Below the pieces are notes generated by a model. That model saw nothing but the letters and a program-made list of their open reading frames with translations. It ran no database searches and had not been told where the DNA came from. From an uncultured Halomicronema sp. (GTDB taxonomy: Bacteria > Cyanobacteriota > Cyanobacteriia > Phormidesmidales > Phormidesmidaceae), in NCBI GenBank assembly GCA_937899725.1, contig CALCCA010000020.1:1-37948 (forward strand): a DNA stretch of 37,948 nucleotides, written 5' to 3'. Shown here in pieces: positions 5,002-14,242 of the stretch. A program made the position numbers and the translations under genes. Numbering within the stretch: position 1 is the stretch's first letter; each line of letters begins with the position of its first letter.

Positions 5002-6358
5002 TTAGACTTCCTCTCTTGAGCCTTTCTTTTAGAAGAGATAAACTCAACTCAAACAAAATTCACTCTAGCGATAGCTATTCTTAGCCATGAATCAAGAGCA
5101 TGTGAACAATTTGGCTAAAGGAAAAGATTTTTGGAATGAATGGCGAAAACATAATGTAGATATAGAACCTGACTTCAGAGAAGCTCAGTTAACTGATATG
5201 GATTCGCATTTAGTTGCCCCCTTAAAACGGAGAAGTTTAAGAGGCTACGACTTGAGTAGAGCTAATTTTTGGCGAGCAAACCTTAGAGCCGTAGATTTGA
5301 CTGAGGCAAATTTGTCTGAAGCATACCTTAATCAAGCAATTTTGGAGGAAGCTGATCTAAGTAGAGCGAATTTGCAAAGTGCTTGGGTTGAAGAGGCTAA
5401 TCTATGCAAAGCCTCATTTCAGGAAACTAATTTATGTTCAACTCAGCTTTGGAGATCAAATTTATCTAGAGCAGATTGTAGTAATGCTTTATTTTGTCAC
5501 GCAAATCTAGGCGCAACTGATTTATTCAAGGCAAACTTTAGCAATACTTGCTTACGGAAGTCCAACCTCCAAGGAGCCAGACTTGTAGAAACTAATTTTG
5601 AAAATGCAGATCTAGGAGAAAACTCTGTTTGGGGAGTATCTGCTTGGGATTTAAATTTGGAGGGTTCCATACAGTCGAATTTGATTATTACATCTAAGGA
5701 CAATGCCGCTATTACAGTAGATGACCTCGAAATCGCTCAATTTATTCACATATTGCTGAACAATCAGAAAATTCGTAAAGTTCTTGATACGATTACGTCA
5801 AAAGTTGTGTTGATACTTGGACGCTTTACATCTGAAAGAAAGGCTATTCTAAATGCTCTTCGTGAAGAACTTCGTAGTAGAGATTATTTATCAGTAGTTT
5901 TTGATTTTGAGAAACCTTCTGAGCGAGATTTGACTGAAACTGTATCTACTCTTGCTCATCTCTCAAGATTTGTGATTGCAGATATTACAGATGCGAAGTG
6001 CATACAGCAAGAGCTTCAACGAATAATACCCTCTCTGCCTTCACTCCCAATTCAGCCTATCATTCTTGATTCACAGCATGACTACGGTATGTTTGGGGAC
6101 TTTGGGGCTTATCAATCTGTTTTGCCGCCTTATCGTTATAAATGTATAGAGCAGCTGTTAGTTTCTCTTGACGACAAGGTTATTGTTCCAGCATTAAGGC
6201 GAGCACAGGAAATTGCCGAAAAACGTAGAGAATTCGAAGCTCATCTTAGGTGATATTTAAATCGTACTCTTTGGTGTTGTCTAACAATCGTGTTAGAGCA
6301 GACTGGCGAAGAGTTCGATGTGAATTCGAAAGTTACTGGCAGATGCTCAACACGATTG
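5002..6358 (+). mobile_element. Candidate single integron-type gene cassette
   Basis: The element holds one gene (5087-6253) followed 25 bases later by an attC-like site. Integron cassettes start with TTRRRY and end with the attC site up to the G of its R' box. Here GTTAGAC (5001-5007) precedes the gene and is the exact reverse complement of the R'' box GTCTAAC (6279-6285). That is what circularisation of a cassette requires: joining G6358 to T5002 would recreate GTTAGAC facing GTCTAAC. The content is clearly more AT-rich than the flanking operons. No integrase gene and no second attC are in the window, so it would be a lone cassette at a secondary GTT site or the edge of a remnant array. The boxes and complementarity are seen directly; the mobility is inferred. 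Confidence 0.55.
5087..6253 (+). CDS. Pentapeptide-repeat protein with TIR/Rossmann-like C-terminal domain
   Basis: Residues about 45-190 are pentapeptide repeats of the A(D/N)LXX type (for example ANLRAVDLTEANLSEAYL), which fold as a right-handed beta helix and usually serve as an interaction scaffold. From about 238 onward the sequence alternates beta strands and helices (VVLILGRF, YLSVVFDFE, FVIADITDA) in the pattern of TIR or nucleoside deoxyribosyltransferase-like folds. A Glu in QQEL, after the FVIADITDA strand, lies where such enzymes place a catalytic Glu. This fits an NAD- or nucleotide-processing effector, but the function is inferred. No signal peptide or membrane segment is seen, so it is probably cytosolic. 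The gene is AT-rich, lacks a clear ribosome site, and is the only gene of the cassette-like element. Confidence 0.8.
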   Translation: MNQEHVNNLAKGKDFWNEWRKHNVDIEPDFREAQLTDMDSHLVAPLKRRSLRGYDLSRANFWRANLRAVDLTEANLSEAYLNQAILEEADLSRANLQSAWVEEANLCKASFQETNLCSTQLWRSNLSRADCSNALFCHANLGATDLFKANFSNTCLRKSNLQGARLVETNFENADLGENSVWGVSAWDLNLEGSIQSNLIITSKDNAAITVDDLEIAQFIHILLNNQKIRKVLDTITSKVVLILGRFTSERKAILNALREELRSRDYLSVVFDFEKPSERDLTETVSTLAHLSRFVIADITDAKCIQQELQRIIPSLPSLPIQPIILDSQHDYGMFGDFGAYQSVLPPYRYKCIEQLLVSLDDKVIVPALRRAQEIAEKRREFEAHLR

Positions 6359-6508: not shown

Positions 6509-7939
6509 TCAACGACCAGAACTTTTCCGCTCAGGCCAGCGATGGCGAAACCCCAAAGCTTCCTGCAGAGCGTAGGCAAATTGCAGCAGGGTCGCTTCGC
6601 CGTGGGGTGGGCCAATGAGCTGCATGCCAATGGGAAGTCCCGAAGCCGTCCAGCCACAAGGAATCGAGAGGGCGGGGAGACCCGTCAGCGAGATGGTGTA
6701 AGTAATGGTGAGGTAGTCGATGATGTTGTGTAGGGGCGTGTCGTTGACCCTCAGCACCTCCGGCTGATCGTGGGGAAAGGGCGGCACGCAGGCGCTGACG
6801 ATCGCCAAAATATCGTGGGTTTCAAAGAAGTTCAGAAAGTTGCGGTAGAGCTGGTCACGCTGAGCAGAGGCGGCCAGAAAATCAGTCGCAGAGAGGTCTT
6901 GACCACGGGCTACGTTCCACCGAACGGTGTCAGTGAGCTGCTCAAAATGCTGTTCGTAGTGCGATTTTTGCTTGTACCAGAGGAGCGCCGCTCGCATCGT
7001 CTCGAAGGCCGATCGCGCCATTGAGCAGTCAGGATGGGCCGGGGTCACTCGCTGGCATAGGGGTGTCAGACGGGCGATCGCTTGTTCAAACACCGCTTGC
7101 ACCTCAGCATCAACGGGCGTAATGCCCAGATCGGCACTGAAGCCCACGCGGACTTTACCCATGAGTTGGTCAACGACAGTTGCATCGAAGGTGGGGAGTG
7201 ACCACGGAGCGGCGATCGCGATCGGATCAGCCGCGTCCCAACCGGCCATCACCGAGAGCATCAGCGCGGCATCTTCGACGGTGCGCGCCAGAATGCCATC
7301 GGTGTCGAGATAGTCCCACAACAGCGGTTTGCGCGATCGCGGAATGCGACCCGCACTGGGGCGCAGGCCAACCACCCCACAAAAGCTGGCAGGCGTGCGG
7401 ACGGAGCCGCCCATGTCGGTGCCCTGGGCGAGGGCACCCATGCCCGTGGCGACTGAAACCGCTGCCCCACCGCTCGACCCGCCAGAACTGCGAGTCGGAT
7501 CATAAGGATTTGCAGTCGGGCCAAACAGCGGATTGGTGCAGTGAGCGCCGAGGCCAAATTCGGGCGTGTTGGTTTTGCCGAGGAGAATACCGCCCGCCTG
7601 CTTCAACCGGGCAATGCACAGCTCGTTTTCGTTAGGAACCCAGTCCTGGTAAATCAGCGACCCCATCGTGGTACGGACACCCGCCGTTGGCGTCAGGTCC
7701 TTGGCTGAAAAGGGCATCCCCGCTAACGGCCCCAGGGATTCCCCCCGACTGCGGGCCTCGTCAACCTGCTGCGCCGCCGCCAAAGCCTGATCAGCACAGA
7801 CGGTGATCAGCGCCTGTAGCTTGTCGTTAGACTGTTCAACCGCTTGCAAACAGCTGTCAATGACCTCCGTGGCCCGAATTTCTTTTTGCGCGAGCCCTTG
7901 CTGTAGCTGAGTGGCAGACCATTGATGGAGTGGCTTCAT
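6509..7939 (-). CDS. Amidase signature family hydrolase
   Basis: Cytosolic amide hydrolase of the Ser-cisSer-Lys type. The triad is readable as Lys80 (MPFSAKD), cis-Ser155 (GGSSGG) and nucleophile Ser179 (GTDMGGS), within the classic signature that runs on to FCGVVGLRPS. Length of 476 aa is usual for the family (GatA, AtzE, nicotinamidase-like and indole-acetamide amidases). It is not GatA by context: it ends a seven-gene operon of transport and hydrolysis genes, and its ATG overlaps the upstream TGA (ATGA, 7936-7939), so translation is coupled to the racemase-like gene. It probably releases ammonia from an amide intermediate; the substrate is not readable. Confidence 0.88.
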   Translation of the reverse strand: MKPLHQWSATQLQQGLAQKEIRATEVIDSCLQAVEQSNDKLQALITVCADQALAAAQQVDEARSRGESLGPLAGMPFSAKDLTPTAGVRTTMGSLIYQDWVPNENELCIARLKQAGGILLGKTNTPEFGLGAHCTNPLFGPTANPYDPTRSSGGSSGGAAVSVATGMGALAQGTDMGGSVRTPASFCGVVGLRPSAGRIPRSRKPLLWDYLDTDGILARTVEDAALMLSVMAGWDAADPIAIAAPWSLPTFDATVVDQLMGKVRVGFSADLGITPVDAEVQAVFEQAIARLTPLCQRVTPAHPDCSMARSAFETMRAALLWYKQKSHYEQHFEQLTDTVRWNVARGQDLSATDFLAASAQRDQLYRNFLNFFETHDILAIVSACVPPFPHDQPEVLRVNDTPLHNIIDYLTITYTISLTGLPALSIPCGWTASGLPIGMQLIGPPHGEATLLQFAYALQEALGFRHRWPERKSSGR

Positions 7940-8673
7940 GGGGCCTCAGTCGTAAACAACTGCCCCCAGCCTTTCACTGGCGTGGGGTCAGCTCCAGCGA
8001 GAAGCAACGATTTCCAGACCACGACAGAAATGGTGTCATAAATAGGAATGCCGATGTGCGCTTCGAGATCAGCCACCAGGGGCGCGGCCCTGAGGTTGGT
8101 GCAGAAGGTGGTAATCGCCTGGGGTTGCGCTTGGGCAACGGCCTTGACCTGCTGAGTAATGCTGTCTGCGGTGACCTCGGAAAAGGCAAAGTTGACGGAC
8201 AAGTCCAAATGGCGTTCGGCGATGCAGTCGAAGCCTGCTTGACGGTAGTTATGCACGATCTTGGACTGGACATCATCGGTGTAGGGCGTGACCAGCCCAA
8301 AGCGGCTAATTTGCTGCCGCTGAAACAGCTCGTTGAGCGCCAATACGGATGTGGTCGCCGGAATACCGGTGACGGATTGAATGCGATCGCACAATTGCAC
8401 ATCTCGCTCGAAGCCTAGCCAACCTGCCGAGGTGCCATTCCAGGCAATCACGTCGACGTTGGCATCGGCTAGCAGTTCGGCTGCGGTGAGCAAGGGGCGA
8501 TCGTCGAATTGTCCCAGCGCGGCCGCCGATAGAGAAATTTCGGTGACGCGAAAGCGGCTGAAGTGGGCCGAGACGTGATCTAACTCTTGCAAAATTGCGG
8601 TCGTAACCGGCTCTAACACCGTGTTGGATGACGGCGTCAGCATCCCTAATAAAACCCGTTTTTCTGCCGACAT
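7936..8673 (-). CDS. Asp/Glu racemase superfamily protein, maleate isomerase / arylmalonate decarboxylase-like
   Basis: The N-terminal TPSSNTVLEP (residues 13-22 from the chosen Met) and the overall two-lobe pattern match maleate cis-trans isomerase and arylmalonate decarboxylase proteins. Those enzymes use cysteines in two symmetric pockets. Here the C-terminal one is present (TFCTN, Cys191), but the N-terminal pocket reads WNGTSAGW (residues 78-85) with no Cys, as in decarboxylase-like or otherwise divergent members. I start at ATG 8673, four bases after the stop of the previous gene; an upstream in-frame Met at 8718 would overlap that gene by 41 bases. It sits between DUF1980 and amidase genes. 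Isomerisation or decarboxylation of a diacid intermediate is a plausible role. Confidence 0.75.
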   Translation of the reverse strand: MSAEKRVLLGMLTPSSNTVLEPVTTAILQELDHVSAHFSRFRVTEISLSAAALGQFDDRPLLTAAELLADANVDVIAWNGTSAGWLGFERDVQLCDRIQSVTGIPATTSVLALNELFQRQQISRFGLVTPYTDDVQSKIVHNYRQAGFDCIAERHLDLSVNFAFSEVTADSITQQVKAVAQAQPQAITTFCTNLRAAPLVADLEAHIGIPIYDTISVVVWKSLLLAGADPTPVKGWGQLFTTEAP

Positions 8674-8677
8674 GGCG

Positions 8678-9163
8678 TTAGAAAACCCCGTTGATATAAA
8701 CCTTTTGCGGTTCGTCAATGGCAGTGATGGTATCAGGTTTCACAATCAGGGTAGGACGGTTGCGATACAGCGTGGTGCCAAAAGTCCCCTGTATCCGTAG
8801 CCACTGGTCAGCCTCATAGGTGTCGGCGGTGTCAGTGGCGATCGCCAGCCCCAGCGGCACCGTATCGGCTAGGCAACAGCGAATGATCCGCCGCGCCAAC
8901 ACAAACTGATTGGGCATCGGGGGAAAAGGTCGATGGACAAAACCGATGATGTCAACCGGTTGCCCCGGAAACTCGTCCACGGGTTCGCGCACTGAGGTGA
9001 TGAGGCGTCGCCACTGCAACACGTTGCGCTGGAGCGGATCGGGTTCCTCGCCCGCCGGTTCGGCATAAGACCAAATATCGATCGCGGGTTCATCCTTCGC
9101 CGGTTCCTTGCCCGTGACGAACTGCGTCAGATTTTGCAGCAGTGGAAACTTCTTCAACCTCAT
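8678..9163 (-). CDS. DUF1980 / TIGR03943-like C-terminal domain protein without membrane part
   Basis: Residues about 65-161 resemble the C-terminal domain of the TIGR03943/DUF1980 (YcgQ-like) proteins: VDIIGFVHR, FVLARRIIRCC, DTVPLGLAI, LRIQGTFG and the closing IDEPQKVYING are characteristic. Family members are normally longer and start with membrane helices, paired with a DUF318 permease. Here the 161-residue product has a polar N-terminus and no membrane segment or signal peptide. It is still intact and embedded in an operon: ATG at 9163 lies two bases after the ATPase stop, and its own stop is four bases before the next ATG. That argues for a retained function with the ABC transporter or enzymes rather than a dead fragment. 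Its role is unknown. Confidence 0.65.
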   Translation of the reverse strand: MRLKKFPLLQNLTQFVTGKEPAKDEPAIDIWSYAEPAGEEPDPLQRNVLQWRRLITSVREPVDEFPGQPVDIIGFVHRPFPPMPNQFVLARRIIRCCLADTVPLGLAIATDTADTYEADQWLRIQGTFGTTLYRNRPTLIVKPDTITAIDEPQKVYINGVF

Positions 9164-9165
9164 GG

Positions 9166-9969
9166 CTAAACCCGCGTATCCAACATTTCGGCGAGTTCCT
9201 GTTCTTCAAAGGCGCGCACCACCTCCGATCGCAGGTGCTCAACAAACAGGTTGCGGTGATACTCAAAACCTTTGCTCATCATGTCGCGGGGGCGCTCCAT
9301 CTCGATGGGAATCATCTCTAGCACGCGACCGGGATTCGCGGTGAGAATGAGGACGCGATCGGCCAGATAAACCGCCTCATCGATATGGTGGGTGACAAAA
9401 ACCACCGTTTTGTTCGTCCCTTCCCACAGCTCTAGTAAGAACTTCTGCATCTGGTGCCGGGTTTGCACATCCAGGGCCGCAAAGGGTTCATCCATCAGCA
9501 GCACATCAGTGCCCAGACAAAGGGCGCGAGCGATGCAGGCGCGCTGTTGCATGCCTCCCGAAAGCTGATGGGGATAGCGGGTAGCGGACTTCAGCAAGCC
9601 CACTTGTTGCAGGTATTGCTTCGCGCGCTCCGTCCGTTCCTGTTTGCTGATGCCCTGCAGGTCGAGGCCAAAGGCGACGTTATCCAATACCGAGAGCCAA
9701 GGAAACAGAGACGCCTGCTGGAAGATCATCGAGCGATCGGTCGAAGGCCCCGTAATCGGCTCGCCGTTGTGGATCATGGCTCCCGAGGTCGGCATGTCTA
9801 GACCCGCCATCATGCTGAGCAGGGTACTTTTGCCGCAGCCACTCGGCCCGATGATGACCAAAAATTCGCCTGGATGAACGGTAAAACTCACCTCATCGAT
9901 CGCTAAGTTGGCATCCGCACTGTCGGGATTCCAAATTTTCGAGAGGTGGTCACAAATAATTTGTCCCAT
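9166..9969 (-). CDS. ABC transporter ATP-binding protein, NrtD/SsuB/TauB family
   Basis: ATPase of a nitrate/sulfonate/taurine-class importer. Walker A GPSGCGKST (41-49), Q-loop FQQ (83-85), signature LSGGMQQ (136-142), Walker B VLLMDEP (156-162) and switch His194 (VTHHIDEA) are all intact. The LSGGMQQR form and 267-residue length without a TOBE domain are typical of SsuB/TauB/ThiZ. It is the third gene of the transporter set (binding protein, permease, ATPase), 40 bases after the permease gene, and is followed almost without gap by the DUF1980-like gene. The ligand class cannot be fixed from the ATPase. Confidence 0.9.
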   Translation of the reverse strand: MGQIICDHLSKIWNPDSADANLAIDEVSFTVHPGEFLVIIGPSGCGKSTLLSMMAGLDMPTSGAMIHNGEPITGPSTDRSMIFQQASLFPWLSVLDNVAFGLDLQGISKQERTERAKQYLQQVGLLKSATRYPHQLSGGMQQRACIARALCLGTDVLLMDEPFAALDVQTRHQMQKFLLELWEGTNKTVVFVTHHIDEAVYLADRVLILTANPGRVLEMIPIEMERPRDMMSKGFEYHRNLFVEHLRSEVVRAFEEQELAEMLDTRV

Positions 9970-10009: not shown

Positions 10010-10903
10010 TTATAGCTGCGAAGCGCCCTTCCACCACAGCACGCGGTTTTGGAGCTGACGGAAAACCACGTCGAGCAGGTATCCCACCAACCCAATCACC
10101 GCCATGCCGAGAAACATCAACTTGGCGTTGAACATCTGGCGACCCACCATGACGATCGCCCCTAAACCCGTATTCACGCCCACCATTTCTGCCGCCAGCA
10201 CCGCCATCCACGCCGCAAAAAAGTTGATCCGCAAAATGAAGAACAGGTCAGGAATAATGGCGGGCAGGATGACCTTAAACATCACCTGCCGTCGACTGGC
10301 CCCCAGCACTCTAGCCGTATTGATATAGAGCTGATTGACATTGCGAATCGCATTGACCGTGGCCAACGTTAGCAAAAAGAAAATACCGATAAACACCACA
10401 AAAATGGCGGCACTATCGCCAATACCAAAGGCCATGATGGCAAAGGGAATCCACGCAATGGGTGCAATGGGTGCCAGCAGCGTAATGACCGGCAAGGTCA
10501 ATTTGCCAAATAGGTCAAAGTAGCAGGCCAAGCCGCCCACCCCGAGCGCCGCGACAAAGCCCATGACCAGACCAATCAACACCCGTTTCAGCGTGGCCAC
10601 AATCGCCGTCAACAGCACAAAGTTGCCCCCGGTGCGCTCCACCCCAATCCGGGGCGCGAGAAATTGATCTTGGTTCGCAATTTCGGCAAAAAATTCGTGA
10701 GGCGGCGGCAAGATAATGGTATTGGTCCACCCCAGTACGGTAATCAGTTCCCAAATGCCAATGAAGAGCCCCAACGAAATGCACCACCACATCACCGACT
10801 GCGCCGCATTTTTGGCCCAGCGGGTTCTCGCCGCTTGCCGCCCTGGGGCGGGCGCTGCTGAACGAACCGGGCGGGAAGCAGGGGGTGGCATTTTGGTCGT
10901 CAT
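10010..10903 (-). CDS. ABC transporter permease, SsuC/TauC family
   Basis: Inner-membrane permease. A basic and Pro/Ala-rich cytoplasmic N-terminus (residues 1-30) precedes about six hydrophobic segments. The coupling motif NTARVLGASRRQVMFKVILP, typical of the BPD_transp_1 domain in SsuC/TauC, is present near residues 190-210. Length of 297 aa is normal. The gene lies 101 bases after the binding-protein gene and 40 before the ATPase gene, all on the minus strand, in the standard order for this transporter class. Confidence 0.88.
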   Translation of the reverse strand: MTTKMPPPASRPVRSAAPAPGRQAARTRWAKNAAQSVMWWCISLGLFIGIWELITVLGWTNTIILPPPHEFFAEIANQDQFLAPRIGVERTGGNFVLLTAIVATLKRVLIGLVMGFVAALGVGGLACYFDLFGKLTLPVITLLAPIAPIAWIPFAIMAFGIGDSAAIFVVFIGIFFLLTLATVNAIRNVNQLYINTARVLGASRRQVMFKVILPAIIPDLFFILRINFFAAWMAVLAAEMVGVNTGLGAIVMVGRQMFNAKLMFLGMAVIGLVGYLLDVVFRQLQNRVLWWKGASQL

Positions 10904-11004: not shown

Positions 11005-12045
11005 TTAAGCGGTGGTTTTGATCTTCACTCGCTCCCACAGCTCCGGACTTTCAGCGATCACTTCTTCGAGCAGCGCGAAGTTGACGAAGTTGTCATCCAG
11101 CTCATCGTTGATGTAGTTCAGCTCTTTCATACTCTGGGCACGACTGTACATAAAGTCCCGCTTGTCGCGAATATCAACGCCTGGGGGCTGGGCTTGAGCC
11201 GCTGCGAGCAAGCTTTCCATGTCGGTCTTGTAGTACTTGTCGATCGTGGTTTGGGCCGCTTCTTCAAAGCCATTTTCGATTTGATATTGCGCCTCAAAAA
11301 AGACGCGAATCACATCTTTCACGACTTCTGGCTCGGCCTCAATGACCTCATTGCGAACCGCTAAAACGCAGTCGGGATAGCCCGCTCCGTAGATATCGGT
11401 GCCGTCGCCGAGAATGTTGCCATTAGTAGAGGTCTGGGCTTTGGTGGCGTAGGGTTCAATGTGGCTCACGGCATCCACCTGACCAGCCACATAGGCATTC
11501 AGTAACTCGGTGGAGTCACCCAAATACACCATTTCCACATCGTCGTAGGTTAACCCCTCCTTTTTGAGGTAGTCATAGACGACGACGTCTAACGTATCGG
11601 CCTGGAAAGTCGCGACTTTTTTGCCTTTGAGATCGGCAAAGGACTGGATCTCAGGCTTGGCAACGATAATCAATCCTTCGACGCCGCTACCAGCGACGAT
11701 TTGAAACGATGCGCCTTGGGTATAGGCCGCGATCGCATTGGTAAAAGGAATCACCGCCATTTCCACTTGCCCCGTGGCTAGTTGAACCGCCACGTCAGCG
11801 GGCATCGGGGTCAAAGCCGCGGTTCCCGTAAAGCCGTATTCGGCAAACAACTGCTTTTCGGCGGCGTAAAACAAAGGCATATTACAGAGTCCGGCCCCGT
11901 GGGCGAACTTGATTTCTCGCCCACCGTTAGCAGCCGTGTTAGTTCTCCCGGCACAACTGCTTAACACCGACAGCATGGCTGGCGTCAGGGCAGCCCCCAA
12001 GCTCATACCTAAAAACCGACGCCGACTGGCACTAGACCGAAACAT
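11005..12045 (-). CDS. ABC transporter substrate-binding lipoprotein, NMT1/SsuA-type
   Basis: Periplasmic ligand-binding protein. A Tat motif SRRRFLG (7-13) and lipobox LSSC (28-31) indicate a Tat-exported lipoprotein anchored at Cys31. The body has the NMT1/SsuA layout: an early FAHGAGLCNMPLFYA segment, MPADVAVQLATGQVEMAV, then DLKGKKVATFQADTLD, and a helical C-terminal part. Members bind nitrate, sulfonates, thiamin pyrimidines and other small ring compounds. Here the neighbouring amidohydrolase and amidases suggest a nitrogen-containing organic ligand, which is inference. The ATG at 12045 is preceded by GAGGAGAAA, a good ribosome site. The gap to the upstream gene is 102 bases. Confidence 0.87.
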   Translation of the reverse strand: MFRSSASRRRFLGMSLGAALTPAMLSVLSSCAGRTNTAANGGREIKFAHGAGLCNMPLFYAAEKQLFAEYGFTGTAALTPMPADVAVQLATGQVEMAVIPFTNAIAAYTQGASFQIVAGSGVEGLIIVAKPEIQSFADLKGKKVATFQADTLDVVVYDYLKKEGLTYDDVEMVYLGDSTELLNAYVAGQVDAVSHIEPYATKAQTSTNGNILGDGTDIYGAGYPDCVLAVRNEVIEAEPEVVKDVIRVFFEAQYQIENGFEEAAQTTIDKYYKTDMESLLAAAQAQPPGVDIRDKRDFMYSRAQSMKELNYINDELDDNFVNFALLEEVIAESPELWERVKIKTTA

Positions 12046-12147: not shown

Positions 12148-13701
12148 TTAACAAGCCGGACAACGACAGTTGGGACTGTAGAACGACTCGCAAGACTGAG
12201 GATCAAACCAGCCGTCATAGACCTTCTTCACATAAGGGAAAACTTCCTTCGCGAGTTCGCGCCGCCGCAACTCATCCGGCGTTAGCGAAGCCCGCATCGA
12301 CTCGGCGAGTTCTTCTAGCAAGGCCTCTTTGTCAACGCGGGTGAACTGACGATCTTGGAGAATCACCTCGCCATTGCACATCACCGTGTGAATGCCGTGG
12401 GTGCGGCTACGATGGAGCACCGCTTCCAGCACGGGAATCGTGTCGTCCAGGTAGGGATAGGCCAGGTGATGCCAGTCCATCAGCACCAGGTCGGCGGCTT
12501 TGCCCGGTTCGAGGGTGCCGACTTCCTTCGCGAAGCGGGTGGTGTGGGCACCGTTTTCCGTCGCCATCTGGAAAACTTGGGCAGCAGCGGGCACGAGGTT
12601 ATCCATCCCCGGTTCGCGGTGCAGCTTGAGCACGAGCCGCATCTCTTGCAGCATGTCGCGATCGTCATTAATGCCCGCCTCATCCAGCCCCATCCCCACC
12701 CGTACACCCTTCTTGGCGTAATAGTTCAGTGGCGCGATGCCGCTCTGCAGCCGCAGGTTAGAGCTGGCATTGTGGCAAATCATGGTGCCGGTTTCGGCAA
12801 TCAGGTCAATGTCTTCTTCAGTGAGCCAAACGCCGTGTCCCAAGGTCAGGTGCTCGCCGAGAACACCCAACTTATTCAGATGCTTGACGGCGGTCGTCCC
12901 GGTACGGCGCTTGGCATACTCCATCTGGTAGGGCGTTTCGAGCAGGTGCATGTGCATACCGACGCCATACTTCTGGGCGTACTCGTTTTGCTGGGTCAAG
13001 GCCTCATCGTCGCACCAGTGCAGGTTCGCCGGAGCAAGTTGAATGCGGATGCGATCGCTCGCCTGCCCCTCCCACTCTTTCCAGAGCGCCTCAAAAAACC
13101 ACAGATAGTCCTGAAGCGGCACTTCGTGAGGCTTGAGCAGCGCTTCCATGTCAGCGGCAATGCTGGGCGGCAGTTTGCTGACAAACTCATCGTTAGACTC
13201 GTAGACGAAATGGTTTTGAGTGCGGACGCCAAAGCAGTACGAGACTCGCATGCCAATGTCTGCATACGCTTTGAGCAACTTACCGGTGATGTCCGGCCAA
13301 TTACCAGCCGGGCCGGGCAGCCAGCCGTGAATGTGCTGCACCGTCGTAATGCCCGACTCAATCATTTCAAACGCAGAGTAGAGCGTATCGAGGTAAAAGT
13401 TGACCGGGCGAGCTGAGAGCCGAGAGGCAAACCACAGCTCTAGGGGATAGTCGAGGGAACCGAGTTGCAGCGGGGTCAACCCGACGTGATGGTGACTATT
13501 CACAAACCCTGGCATCACCACATCATGGGGCGACCCTAAAACTTCATCTGGCTGGTATTTAGCCGCCAAGGCTTCATAAGCACCAATTTCAACGATGCGG
13601 CCATCCTGCTGAAAAACTGCCCCATTTTCAATAATTTCTGCCTCAGTGCGGCTGAGTGCTTTGGTGATCACGTATTTGCCGCGAATCAATGTTGAAGCCA
13701 T
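12148..13701 (-). CDS. Metal-dependent amidohydrolase (TRZ/ATZ, cytosine deaminase-like family)
   Basis: Binuclear/mononuclear metal hydrolase of the amidohydrolase superfamily. The metal ligands are readable: HxH in NSHHHVG (His70, His72), His252 (HMHLLET), His289 (LGHGVWL) and Asp340 (GMGLDEAG). The chlorohydrolase/deaminase subgroup (TrzN, AtzB, guanine deaminase, SAH deaminase) acts on C-N or C-Cl bonds of aromatic or cyclic N-compounds. At 517 residues it is slightly long. The extra C-terminus ends in a cysteine cluster (CESFYSPNCRCPAC), which is unusual and may bind metal. First gene of the seven-gene operon, so its product probably catalyses the first or signature step on the imported substrate. 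The substrate is unknown. Confidence 0.87.
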   Translation of the reverse strand: MASTLIRGKYVITKALSRTEAEIIENGAVFQQDGRIVEIGAYEALAAKYQPDEVLGSPHDVVMPGFVNSHHHVGLTPLQLGSLDYPLELWFASRLSARPVNFYLDTLYSAFEMIESGITTVQHIHGWLPGPAGNWPDITGKLLKAYADIGMRVSYCFGVRTQNHFVYESNDEFVSKLPPSIAADMEALLKPHEVPLQDYLWFFEALWKEWEGQASDRIRIQLAPANLHWCDDEALTQQNEYAQKYGVGMHMHLLETPYQMEYAKRRTGTTAVKHLNKLGVLGEHLTLGHGVWLTEEDIDLIAETGTMICHNASSNLRLQSGIAPLNYYAKKGVRVGMGLDEAGINDDRDMLQEMRLVLKLHREPGMDNLVPAAAQVFQMATENGAHTTRFAKEVGTLEPGKAADLVLMDWHHLAYPYLDDTIPVLEAVLHRSRTHGIHTVMCNGEVILQDRQFTRVDKEALLEELAESMRASLTPDELRRRELAKEVFPYVKKVYDGWFDPQSCESFYSPNCRCPAC

Positions 13702-14242
13702 ATCTCACTCAGATAAATAGCCAGGAAAAAATAGACCGAAAAACATCGATCTGACCGATCAGATCCCCCTAATCAGCTAATACATGAAATCTGAACGAGC
13801 GATCGCAGACTGAGAAGTCGCCATCGTCACGAATCAGAAATCAACCTTGATTTTGCAAATACTTCTCTGGCATTGACCAGACGGCATTCAGGCAAACAAC
13901 AATAAAGTCTTGGCCAGAAAAGTCTTCAGGAAACGTTGCGCTAGTACCCAAGGGGTACCTTCCTTAAGAGGCTTCAACCACGCCAAGCTAAGCCCGAACT
14001 TATTGACAATGATATTACGAAGGAGTCTCTTAAAGCGTTGTATACTCAATTACATTTGACGACCTAAAACATTTCTTAAAAGACTTTTTTGCAAAAGATT
14101 TGACTGCATGAATCTTAAGGTAAGTCACCTTTCCCGAAGTCTATTGCTGGCTGATTTTGCCTGATGCATGAAGACTCCTCAAATATCTAACATCGATCAG
14201 AAACGTTGATTTTTGATGACATTTGGAATGATTATCATTCTC
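13702..14242. promoter_or_regulatory. Divergent control region between the seven-gene operon and the second amidase
   Basis: About 540 bases lie between two divergent genes of related function, so both promoters and any shared operator should be here. The best dyad is GTACCC-AAG-GGGTAC at 13944-13958. A TTGACA (14003-14008) and a TATACT (14041-14046) are present facing the amidase, but they are 32 bases apart and do not form one standard promoter. No small gene is supported within the interval. Confidence 0.4.
13944..13958. promoter_or_regulatory. Perfect 6-3-6 inverted repeat GTACCC/GGGTAC, candidate operator
   Basis: GTACCC and GGGTAC are exact reverse complements separated by AAG. It lies 243 bases upstream of the amidohydrolase gene and 285 upstream of the amidase gene. 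It resembles but does not equal the NtcA box GTA-N8-TAC; the spacing here is N9. A local regulator or a variant NtcA site is possible. Confidence 0.35.

Follow-up and report, generated by a model that had tools for sequence, protein, structure and literature searches.

A stand-alone DUF1980_C protein with a predicted OB fold accompanies an NMT1-type ABC importer in cyanobacteria and is a candidate accessory of its ATPase

The window analysed here (the whole stretch of 37,948 nucleotides) carries, within the operon of an NMT1-type ABC importer, a gene for a stand-alone protein of the DUF1980_C family, and in two groups of genomes this gene was found in exactly those genomes that also encode the substrate-binding protein (SBP) of the importer. 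Tentatively, at close to an even chance, we read the product as an accessory subunit of the importer, cytosolic and with an OB fold, most likely docked on the ATPase, which it would stabilise or gate; we infer the contact, regulation, ligand, metal and cytosolic location of the protein from the comparisons below. The genes follow one another on the minus strand in the order amidohydrolase, SBP, permease, ATPase, DUF1980_C, racemase-like and amidase, and the features of the locus are these:

14012..14053, minus strand: putative NtcA-type promoter, GTA-N8-TAC, 22 nt, TAN3T
13918..14002, minus strand: conserved two-hairpin leader RNA, 5' of the amidohydrolase gene (RNA models R1 and R2)
12148..13701, minus strand: amidohydrolase of the TRZ/ATZ type, a relative of 8-oxoguanine deaminase and atrazine chlorohydrolase (profiles, solved relatives)
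11005..12045, minus strand: SBP, NMT1/SsuA-like (profiles; RR...C signal by eye)
10010..10903, minus strand: ABC permease, TauC/NrtB/SsuC-like, with scores below the cut-offs of those families (profiles)
9166..9969, minus strand: ABC ATPase of the NMT1-type importer (profile matches)
about 9166-9195, minus strand: conserved C-terminal tail of the ATPase, LAEMLDTRV (ATPase comparison)
8678..9163, minus strand: stand-alone DUF1980_C protein, 161 aa, predicted OB fold (ORF, Pfam, NCBIfam, alignment, AlphaFold model)
7936..8673, minus strand: protein resembling Asp/Glu racemase, maleate isomerase and arylmalonate decarboxylase, a variable partner of the core (profiles)
6509..7939, minus strand: amidase-signature hydrolase, a variable partner of the core (profiles)

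The DUF1980_C reading frame starts with ATG two bases after the stop codon of the ATPase gene (9166-9168), and the ATG of the racemase-like gene (8671-8673) follows it after four bases. Reading frame and profiles thus bear out the earlier note, in which an intact, stand-alone DUF1980-like product of 161 residues with these short junctions was described inside an ABC transporter operon. That note had also taken the tight packing as a sign of function; function itself is supported by selection and by linkage to the importer, whereas the packing is a weak argument because the junction with the ATPase gene, 2-7 bases in nine of the 17 genomes with the gene, loosens in the other eight (18-34 bases in four, 84 to about 315 in four). 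By eye, a pentapeptide-repeat-like protein is encoded next to the operon at 5087-6253 on the plus strand, and the C-terminal tail of the amidohydrolase (12148-12190, minus strand) is cysteine-rich (CESFYSPNCRCPAC) and variable among relatives.

By profile the 161-residue protein belongs to DUF1980_C: it matched Pfam PF21537 with an E-value of 1.6e-19 and a score of 70.4 bits, above the gathering cut-off of 25.9, and this was the only family found at E<=1 in a Pfam scan that gave no match to the TOBE or STAS profiles. It also scored 100.8 bits with NCBIfam TIGR03943 (curated cut-off 88.8), but the aligned part was confined to profile positions 95-221 of 221, which means that the N-terminal membrane part is absent. 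Having neither membrane segments nor an adjoining permease partner, it falls outside the canonical TIGR03943 permease subunits. The gene has no DUF318-type permease beside it; its neighbours in the window are, by profile, ABC importer genes and hydrolases, and in the relatives they are importer genes (tblastn). Elsewhere in its genome the host has a canonical TIGR03943 gene of 246 codons with three predicted transmembrane segments, adjoining a 349-aa ORF that by eye resembles a DUF318-type permease. No solved structure related by sequence was found at E<=1, and the titles and abstract openings searched contained no report on a stand-alone DUF1980 protein or on the leader RNA. DUF1980/TIGR03943 homologues are called genes of unknown function in an excerpt from a 2017 paper (PMC5584981), and a Staphylococcus DUF1980 protein is entered in the lipoprotein table of an excerpted second one (PMC5020093).

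As the match covers the C-terminal half of TIGR03943 only, the gene might be a functionless truncated relic of a TIGR03943 gene, and the earlier note had named a membrane part elsewhere in the loci of close relatives as the mark of such a truncation. We looked for that part in the stretches around the stand-alone gene in 17 genomes, where the canonical membrane-part profile found nothing at E<=10; the same profile recovered the canonical TIGR03943 gene of the host at 1.5e-53. There are 17 orthologues in two families, and dN/dS was 0.04-0.19 in seven of eight pairs of stand-alone genes, the eighth (the window against L007) being saturated at synonymous sites. A tree of 42 domains grouped the 12 stand-alone rows of the host's order in one clade (100/98) on a long stem, with the resident canonical copy on another branch and not sister to it; long branches make the place of the clade among the canonical sequences uncertain, and the tree was built without the five rows of the second family. 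On these grounds we reject the relic, which we regard as next to impossible. Two copies depart from the common form: the one in genome G570 (L146:2855-3241) is about 30 residues short around strand 4, with W121 and G126 among the missing ones, and retains the C-terminal YINGVF, so that either this copy is decaying or the barrel can do without that part, and the G395 protein ends before INGVF.

Whole-genome searches with a six-row alignment detected the stand-alone form in 12 of the 63 genomes of the host's order (180-327 bits), the remaining matches there reaching at most 83 bits and lying mostly within frames of canonical length, and in 5 of 36 genomes of a second family. A search for contigs of close relatives had given five, all cyanobacterial and all with the short form. 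A sample of the phylum (1 of 386 genomes positive) had early suggested one order only, and a sample of the class, with 16 positives among 388 genomes (11 from the host's family, five from the second), added the second family. Orthologues of the SBP (at least 434 bits) occurred in the same 12 genomes of the host's order, with paralogues only (at most 113 bits) in eleven further ones, and in the same five genomes of the second family. Across the 99 genomes of the two groups, 17 had both SBP and DUF1980_C gene, 82 had neither and none was discordant; at all 17 loci the stand-alone gene comes after that of the ATPase. DUF1980-only proteins beside NMT1-type transporters, for which the earlier note had proposed a search, do exist, in 17 genomes and two families.

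The amidohydrolase gene does not follow the same pattern. In G390 and G422 (L095, L094) it adjoins the genes of the racemase-like protein and the amidase, the SBP, permease, ATPase and DUF1980_C genes all being missing between them, and whole-genome searches of both yielded no match to the SBP or to stand-alone DUF1980_C; G390 is a draft genome with a stop inside its amidohydrolase frame. Conversely, the draft genome G395, with genes for SBP, permease, DUF1980_C and an ATPase whose frame is broken, gave no amidohydrolase match at E<=1e-60. The stand-alone gene thus tracks the importer and not the amidohydrolase, and of the earlier suggestion of an accessory to transporter or enzymes it is the transporter that agrees with the distribution; the uncoupled loci speak against the enzymes. 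A transposase-like ORF, seen by eye, occupies the usual place of the amidohydrolase gene before the importer in G395 (L074:1-1554). Other arrangements noted by eye include the Phormidium FACHB-1136 locus (L004:8680-15296), where a further amidohydrolase gene, a hydantoin-racemase-like gene and hydantoinase-like HyuA/HyuB genes come after the operon, and a second NMT1-type importer of the host (L139:1129-8287), which adjoins ORFs resembling nitrile hydratase (CTLCSC) and isochorismatase and a GTPase similar to metal chaperones.

Six proteobacterial plasmids, taken from 250 records that matched the SBP in a comparison of plasmids, carry orthologous SBP, permease, ATPase and amidohydrolase genes with 41-58% identity (41-54% for the importer components), and four of them also have a carbon-nitrogen hydrolase gene, placed between those of the ATPase and the amidohydrolase. 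The stretches fetched from these six plasmids contained no DUF1980_C, nor did tblastn at E<=1e-3 give a DUF1980_C match on them, its 18 hits all being to Bacillota or Calothrix. As the importers on these plasmids do without DUF1980_C, the protein would not be needed for basic transport.

The ATPases beside the domain share a feature at their C-terminus. All 11 intact ATPases of the host's order have L-A/V-E-M-x-D-T at their end, followed by two or three residues, and all five of the second family have LAEMLDTR, so that the tail is present in 16 of 16; in G395, where the ATPase frame is broken, the protein finishes with LAEMLDN and three further residues. The six proteobacterial orthologues stop at the last common motif (tail in none of six), and no tail was found in three related cyanobacterial ATPase types without a DUF1980_C neighbour. 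On this comparison the tail is a candidate docking site for the DUF1980_C protein, though it could simply be lineage-specific.

Using an alignment of 47 rows, AlphaFold2 predicted an OB barrel (mean pLDDT 85.1, pTM 0.76) with five strands at residues 69-77, 86-95, 100-109, 121-133 and 136-148; this model replaced an earlier poor one from six sequences (pLDDT 62). With the predicted model as query, the best Foldseek match was to an SSB (E 7.5e-4) and the best VIA match had Z 9.1 over 93 residues with an rmsd of 3.8. The top matches of both programs were SSB, PriB, the Asn-, Lys- and Asp-tRNA synthetases, Ten1-containing complexes, RPA and MCM, all of which contain OB folds; a predicted OB fold shared with such proteins says nothing of function. 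No TOBE, molbindin or STAS name appeared among the best 50 matches listed by Foldseek and VIA. Residues W51, G74, C96, C97, D100, P103, W121, G126 and P152 are invariant in the 47 rows, and in the model the cysteine pair 96-97 sits at the turn joining strands 2 and 3. The resulting CC..D motif is present in all 17 stand-alone proteins and is common to the canonical rows aligned; a canonical relative on a Calothrix plasmid, outside the alignment, has no CC. Two segments set the stand-alone form apart, residues 28-42 outside the barrel, which are strongly conserved in it and not seen in canonical rows, and the C-terminal INGVF, found in 16 of 17 stand-alone proteins and likewise not seen in canonical rows. 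Their conservation is as expected of a binding surface.

The two forms also appear to differ in the side of the membrane on which the domain lies. Among 14 canonical proteins, a crude hydropathy cut-off gave three segments in eight and fewer in the other six, and in seven of those eight the loop leading into the third segment is more basic than its predecessor (in the eighth the third segment is misplaced), an arrangement that would weakly place the canonical domain outside. The lipoprotein entry in the excerpt of PMC5020093 fits this location. None of the 12 stand-alone proteins of the host's order has a transmembrane segment or a signal-like N-terminus by hydropathy, the best 15-residue mean within the first 40 residues being at most 0.90 in all 12; no twin-arginine motif or lipobox was seen by eye in the stand-alone proteins, and their N-terminal segment is amphipathic, with a hydrophobic moment of 0.49-0.85 over 11 residues. 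The domain thus appears, from sequence features, to have changed sides, from outside in the canonical form to the cytosol in the stand-alone form.

In the mechanism that we propose, the importer would bring a small nitrogen compound into the cell for the hydrolases, and the DUF1980_C protein would dock on the importer ATPase, perhaps through its extra C-terminal tail, and there stabilise or gate it, the trigger possibly being the sensing of the imported compound or of a metal at the conserved CC..D hairpin. That the importer is nitrogen-controlled and takes up such a compound for the hydrolases is probable; the nearest solved structures to the amidohydrolase are methylthioadenosine/S-adenosylhomocysteine deaminase, atrazine chlorohydrolase and 8-oxoguanine deaminase. 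Action on the ATPase is suggested by the one-to-one linkage with the SBP, the position of the gene next to that of the ATPase, the tail, the OB barrel, the conserved surface, the selection and the precedent of MlaB. A wider version of the same idea, in which the protein would be a separate OB-fold regulatory subunit of type I ABC importers, made from an outside-face domain moved to the cytosol and docking on the ATPase tail, with the leader RNA maybe a riboswitch for the same nitrogen compound, we consider somewhat unlikely.

Presence together with the transporter would also be expected if the protein served the imported substrate and not the ATPase. It might then be a cytosolic buffer or carrier that binds the entering compound, or a metal bound to it, and hands it over to the enzymes, with no action on the ATPase. 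OB folds serve in ligand binding and molbindins bind and carry molybdate, and such a carrier would account for the linkage to the transporter and for a CC..D motif held in common with the canonical rows; it leaves unexplained the ATPase tail and the long conserved segment outside the barrel, and we find it unlikely. A metallochaperone loading the amidohydrolase or other enzymes of the cluster seems quite improbable to us and was demoted because amidohydrolase-only loci were found: G390 and G422 have the enzyme but not the domain, G395 has the domain but not the enzyme, and no domain lies in the stretches around any of the six proteobacterial amidohydrolases. In its favour are the relatives of the amidohydrolase, which belong to a metal-dependent superfamily, and an annotated GTP-binding protein gene near canonical DUF1980 genes on two of three Bacillota plasmids, which hints at metal homeostasis. 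Finally, the protein might be exported, or anchored to the membrane by a short N-terminal helix, and work outside with the SBP, as the weak prediction for the canonical domain and the amphipathic N-terminal segment would allow; against this stand the missing hydrophobic core of a signal type in all 12 proteins and the twin-arginine motif and lipobox not seen by eye, and we hold this to be very unlikely.

Upstream of the amidohydrolase gene, the box GTA-N8-TAC with TAN3T at its spacing is the arrangement of NtcA-type promoters. A strict box occurs in all 11 loci of the host's order that have both transporter and amidohydrolase, with TAN3T 22-23 nt after it in nine of them; of shuffled sequences, 2-12% contained the strict box and 0-2% the full arrangement. 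There was no strict box at the two transporterless loci (G390, G422) and none within 520 nt upstream in the four loci of the second family; farther upstream one of these four (L145) has a strict box near the leader RNA, with no TAN3T seen by eye at the right distance.

The leader RNA lies downstream of the NtcA-type promoter and is made of two hairpins with 16 pairs, six of which show compensatory changes in eight sequences, and of a conserved loop TTGGCGTGG and junction CTAGCGCAAC. Model R1 found it in four loci of the second family that were absent from its building set (43-71 bits), and in 14 distinct rows, which had been fitted to the model, nine of 16 pairs had changes in both partners, compared with a mean of 4.1 after shuffling. 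Of the 17 genomes that have the stand-alone gene, whole-genome searches located the leader in 14, the exceptions being G395, G408 and G427; they located it in G390 as well. In G570 it is on the contig and strand of the SBP gene, in G437 a second copy stands ahead of a partial amidohydrolase match, and in G516 partial copies precede a short paralogous amidohydrolase ORF; by eye, transposase-like ORFs lie between two partial leader matches at L142:1248-2609, as if inserted into a leader before such an ORF. In the phylum sample the host alone exceeded 24 bits with the leader RNA model; matches of about 17-27 bits elsewhere were treated as noise, and one weak match, L121, was discarded when its sequence was read and the conserved core was missing. 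Neither the window nor nine related loci gave a match to an Rfam family at its gathering score, and the 571 nt around the leader gave four matches below the gathering scores (E 2.5-8.2). The leader is a candidate riboswitch.

Compared with known systems, the SBP, permease and ATPase have their nearest NCBIfam relatives in TauABC, SsuABC and NrtABCD, although no curated cut-off is reached and the DUF1980_C gene is an addition. With the canonical TIGR03943/DUF1980 proteins (YcgQ, ScfB), which have a DUF318-type permease partner, the protein shares a homologous C-terminal domain above the cut-off and the CC..D core; it differs in standing alone without membrane segments or such a permease beside it, in its place in an NMT1-type importer operon, in its extra conserved N- and C-terminal segments and in forming a separate clade. 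The TOBE domains of ModC/MalK-type ATPases and the molbindins are likewise OB-type domains linked to the ATPase of an ABC importer, but here the gene is separate, there is no TOBE Pfam match and the family is DUF1980_C. Nearest in idea is MlaB, a small separate cytoplasmic protein that, in the excerpt of its description, binds the ABC ATPase MlaF, which has a C-terminal extension of its own (PMC7367683); MlaB is a STAS protein, whereas here an OB fold is predicted, the importer is of another family and the contact is one that we infer. If our preferred reading, the subunit docked on the ATPase, is right, the DUF1980_C protein would work like MlaB or a TOBE domain though it belongs to neither family.

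DUF1980/TIGR03943 is a family without a settled function, and a soluble single-domain member tied to a defined importer offers a convenient way to find out what the domain binds. Should it prove to act on the ATPase, it would be, like MlaB, a small protein of its own that controls an ABC ATPase, and would show that a domain predicted to lie outside was recruited to the cytosol. The leader RNA and the NtcA-type promoter make the question of the substrate testable.
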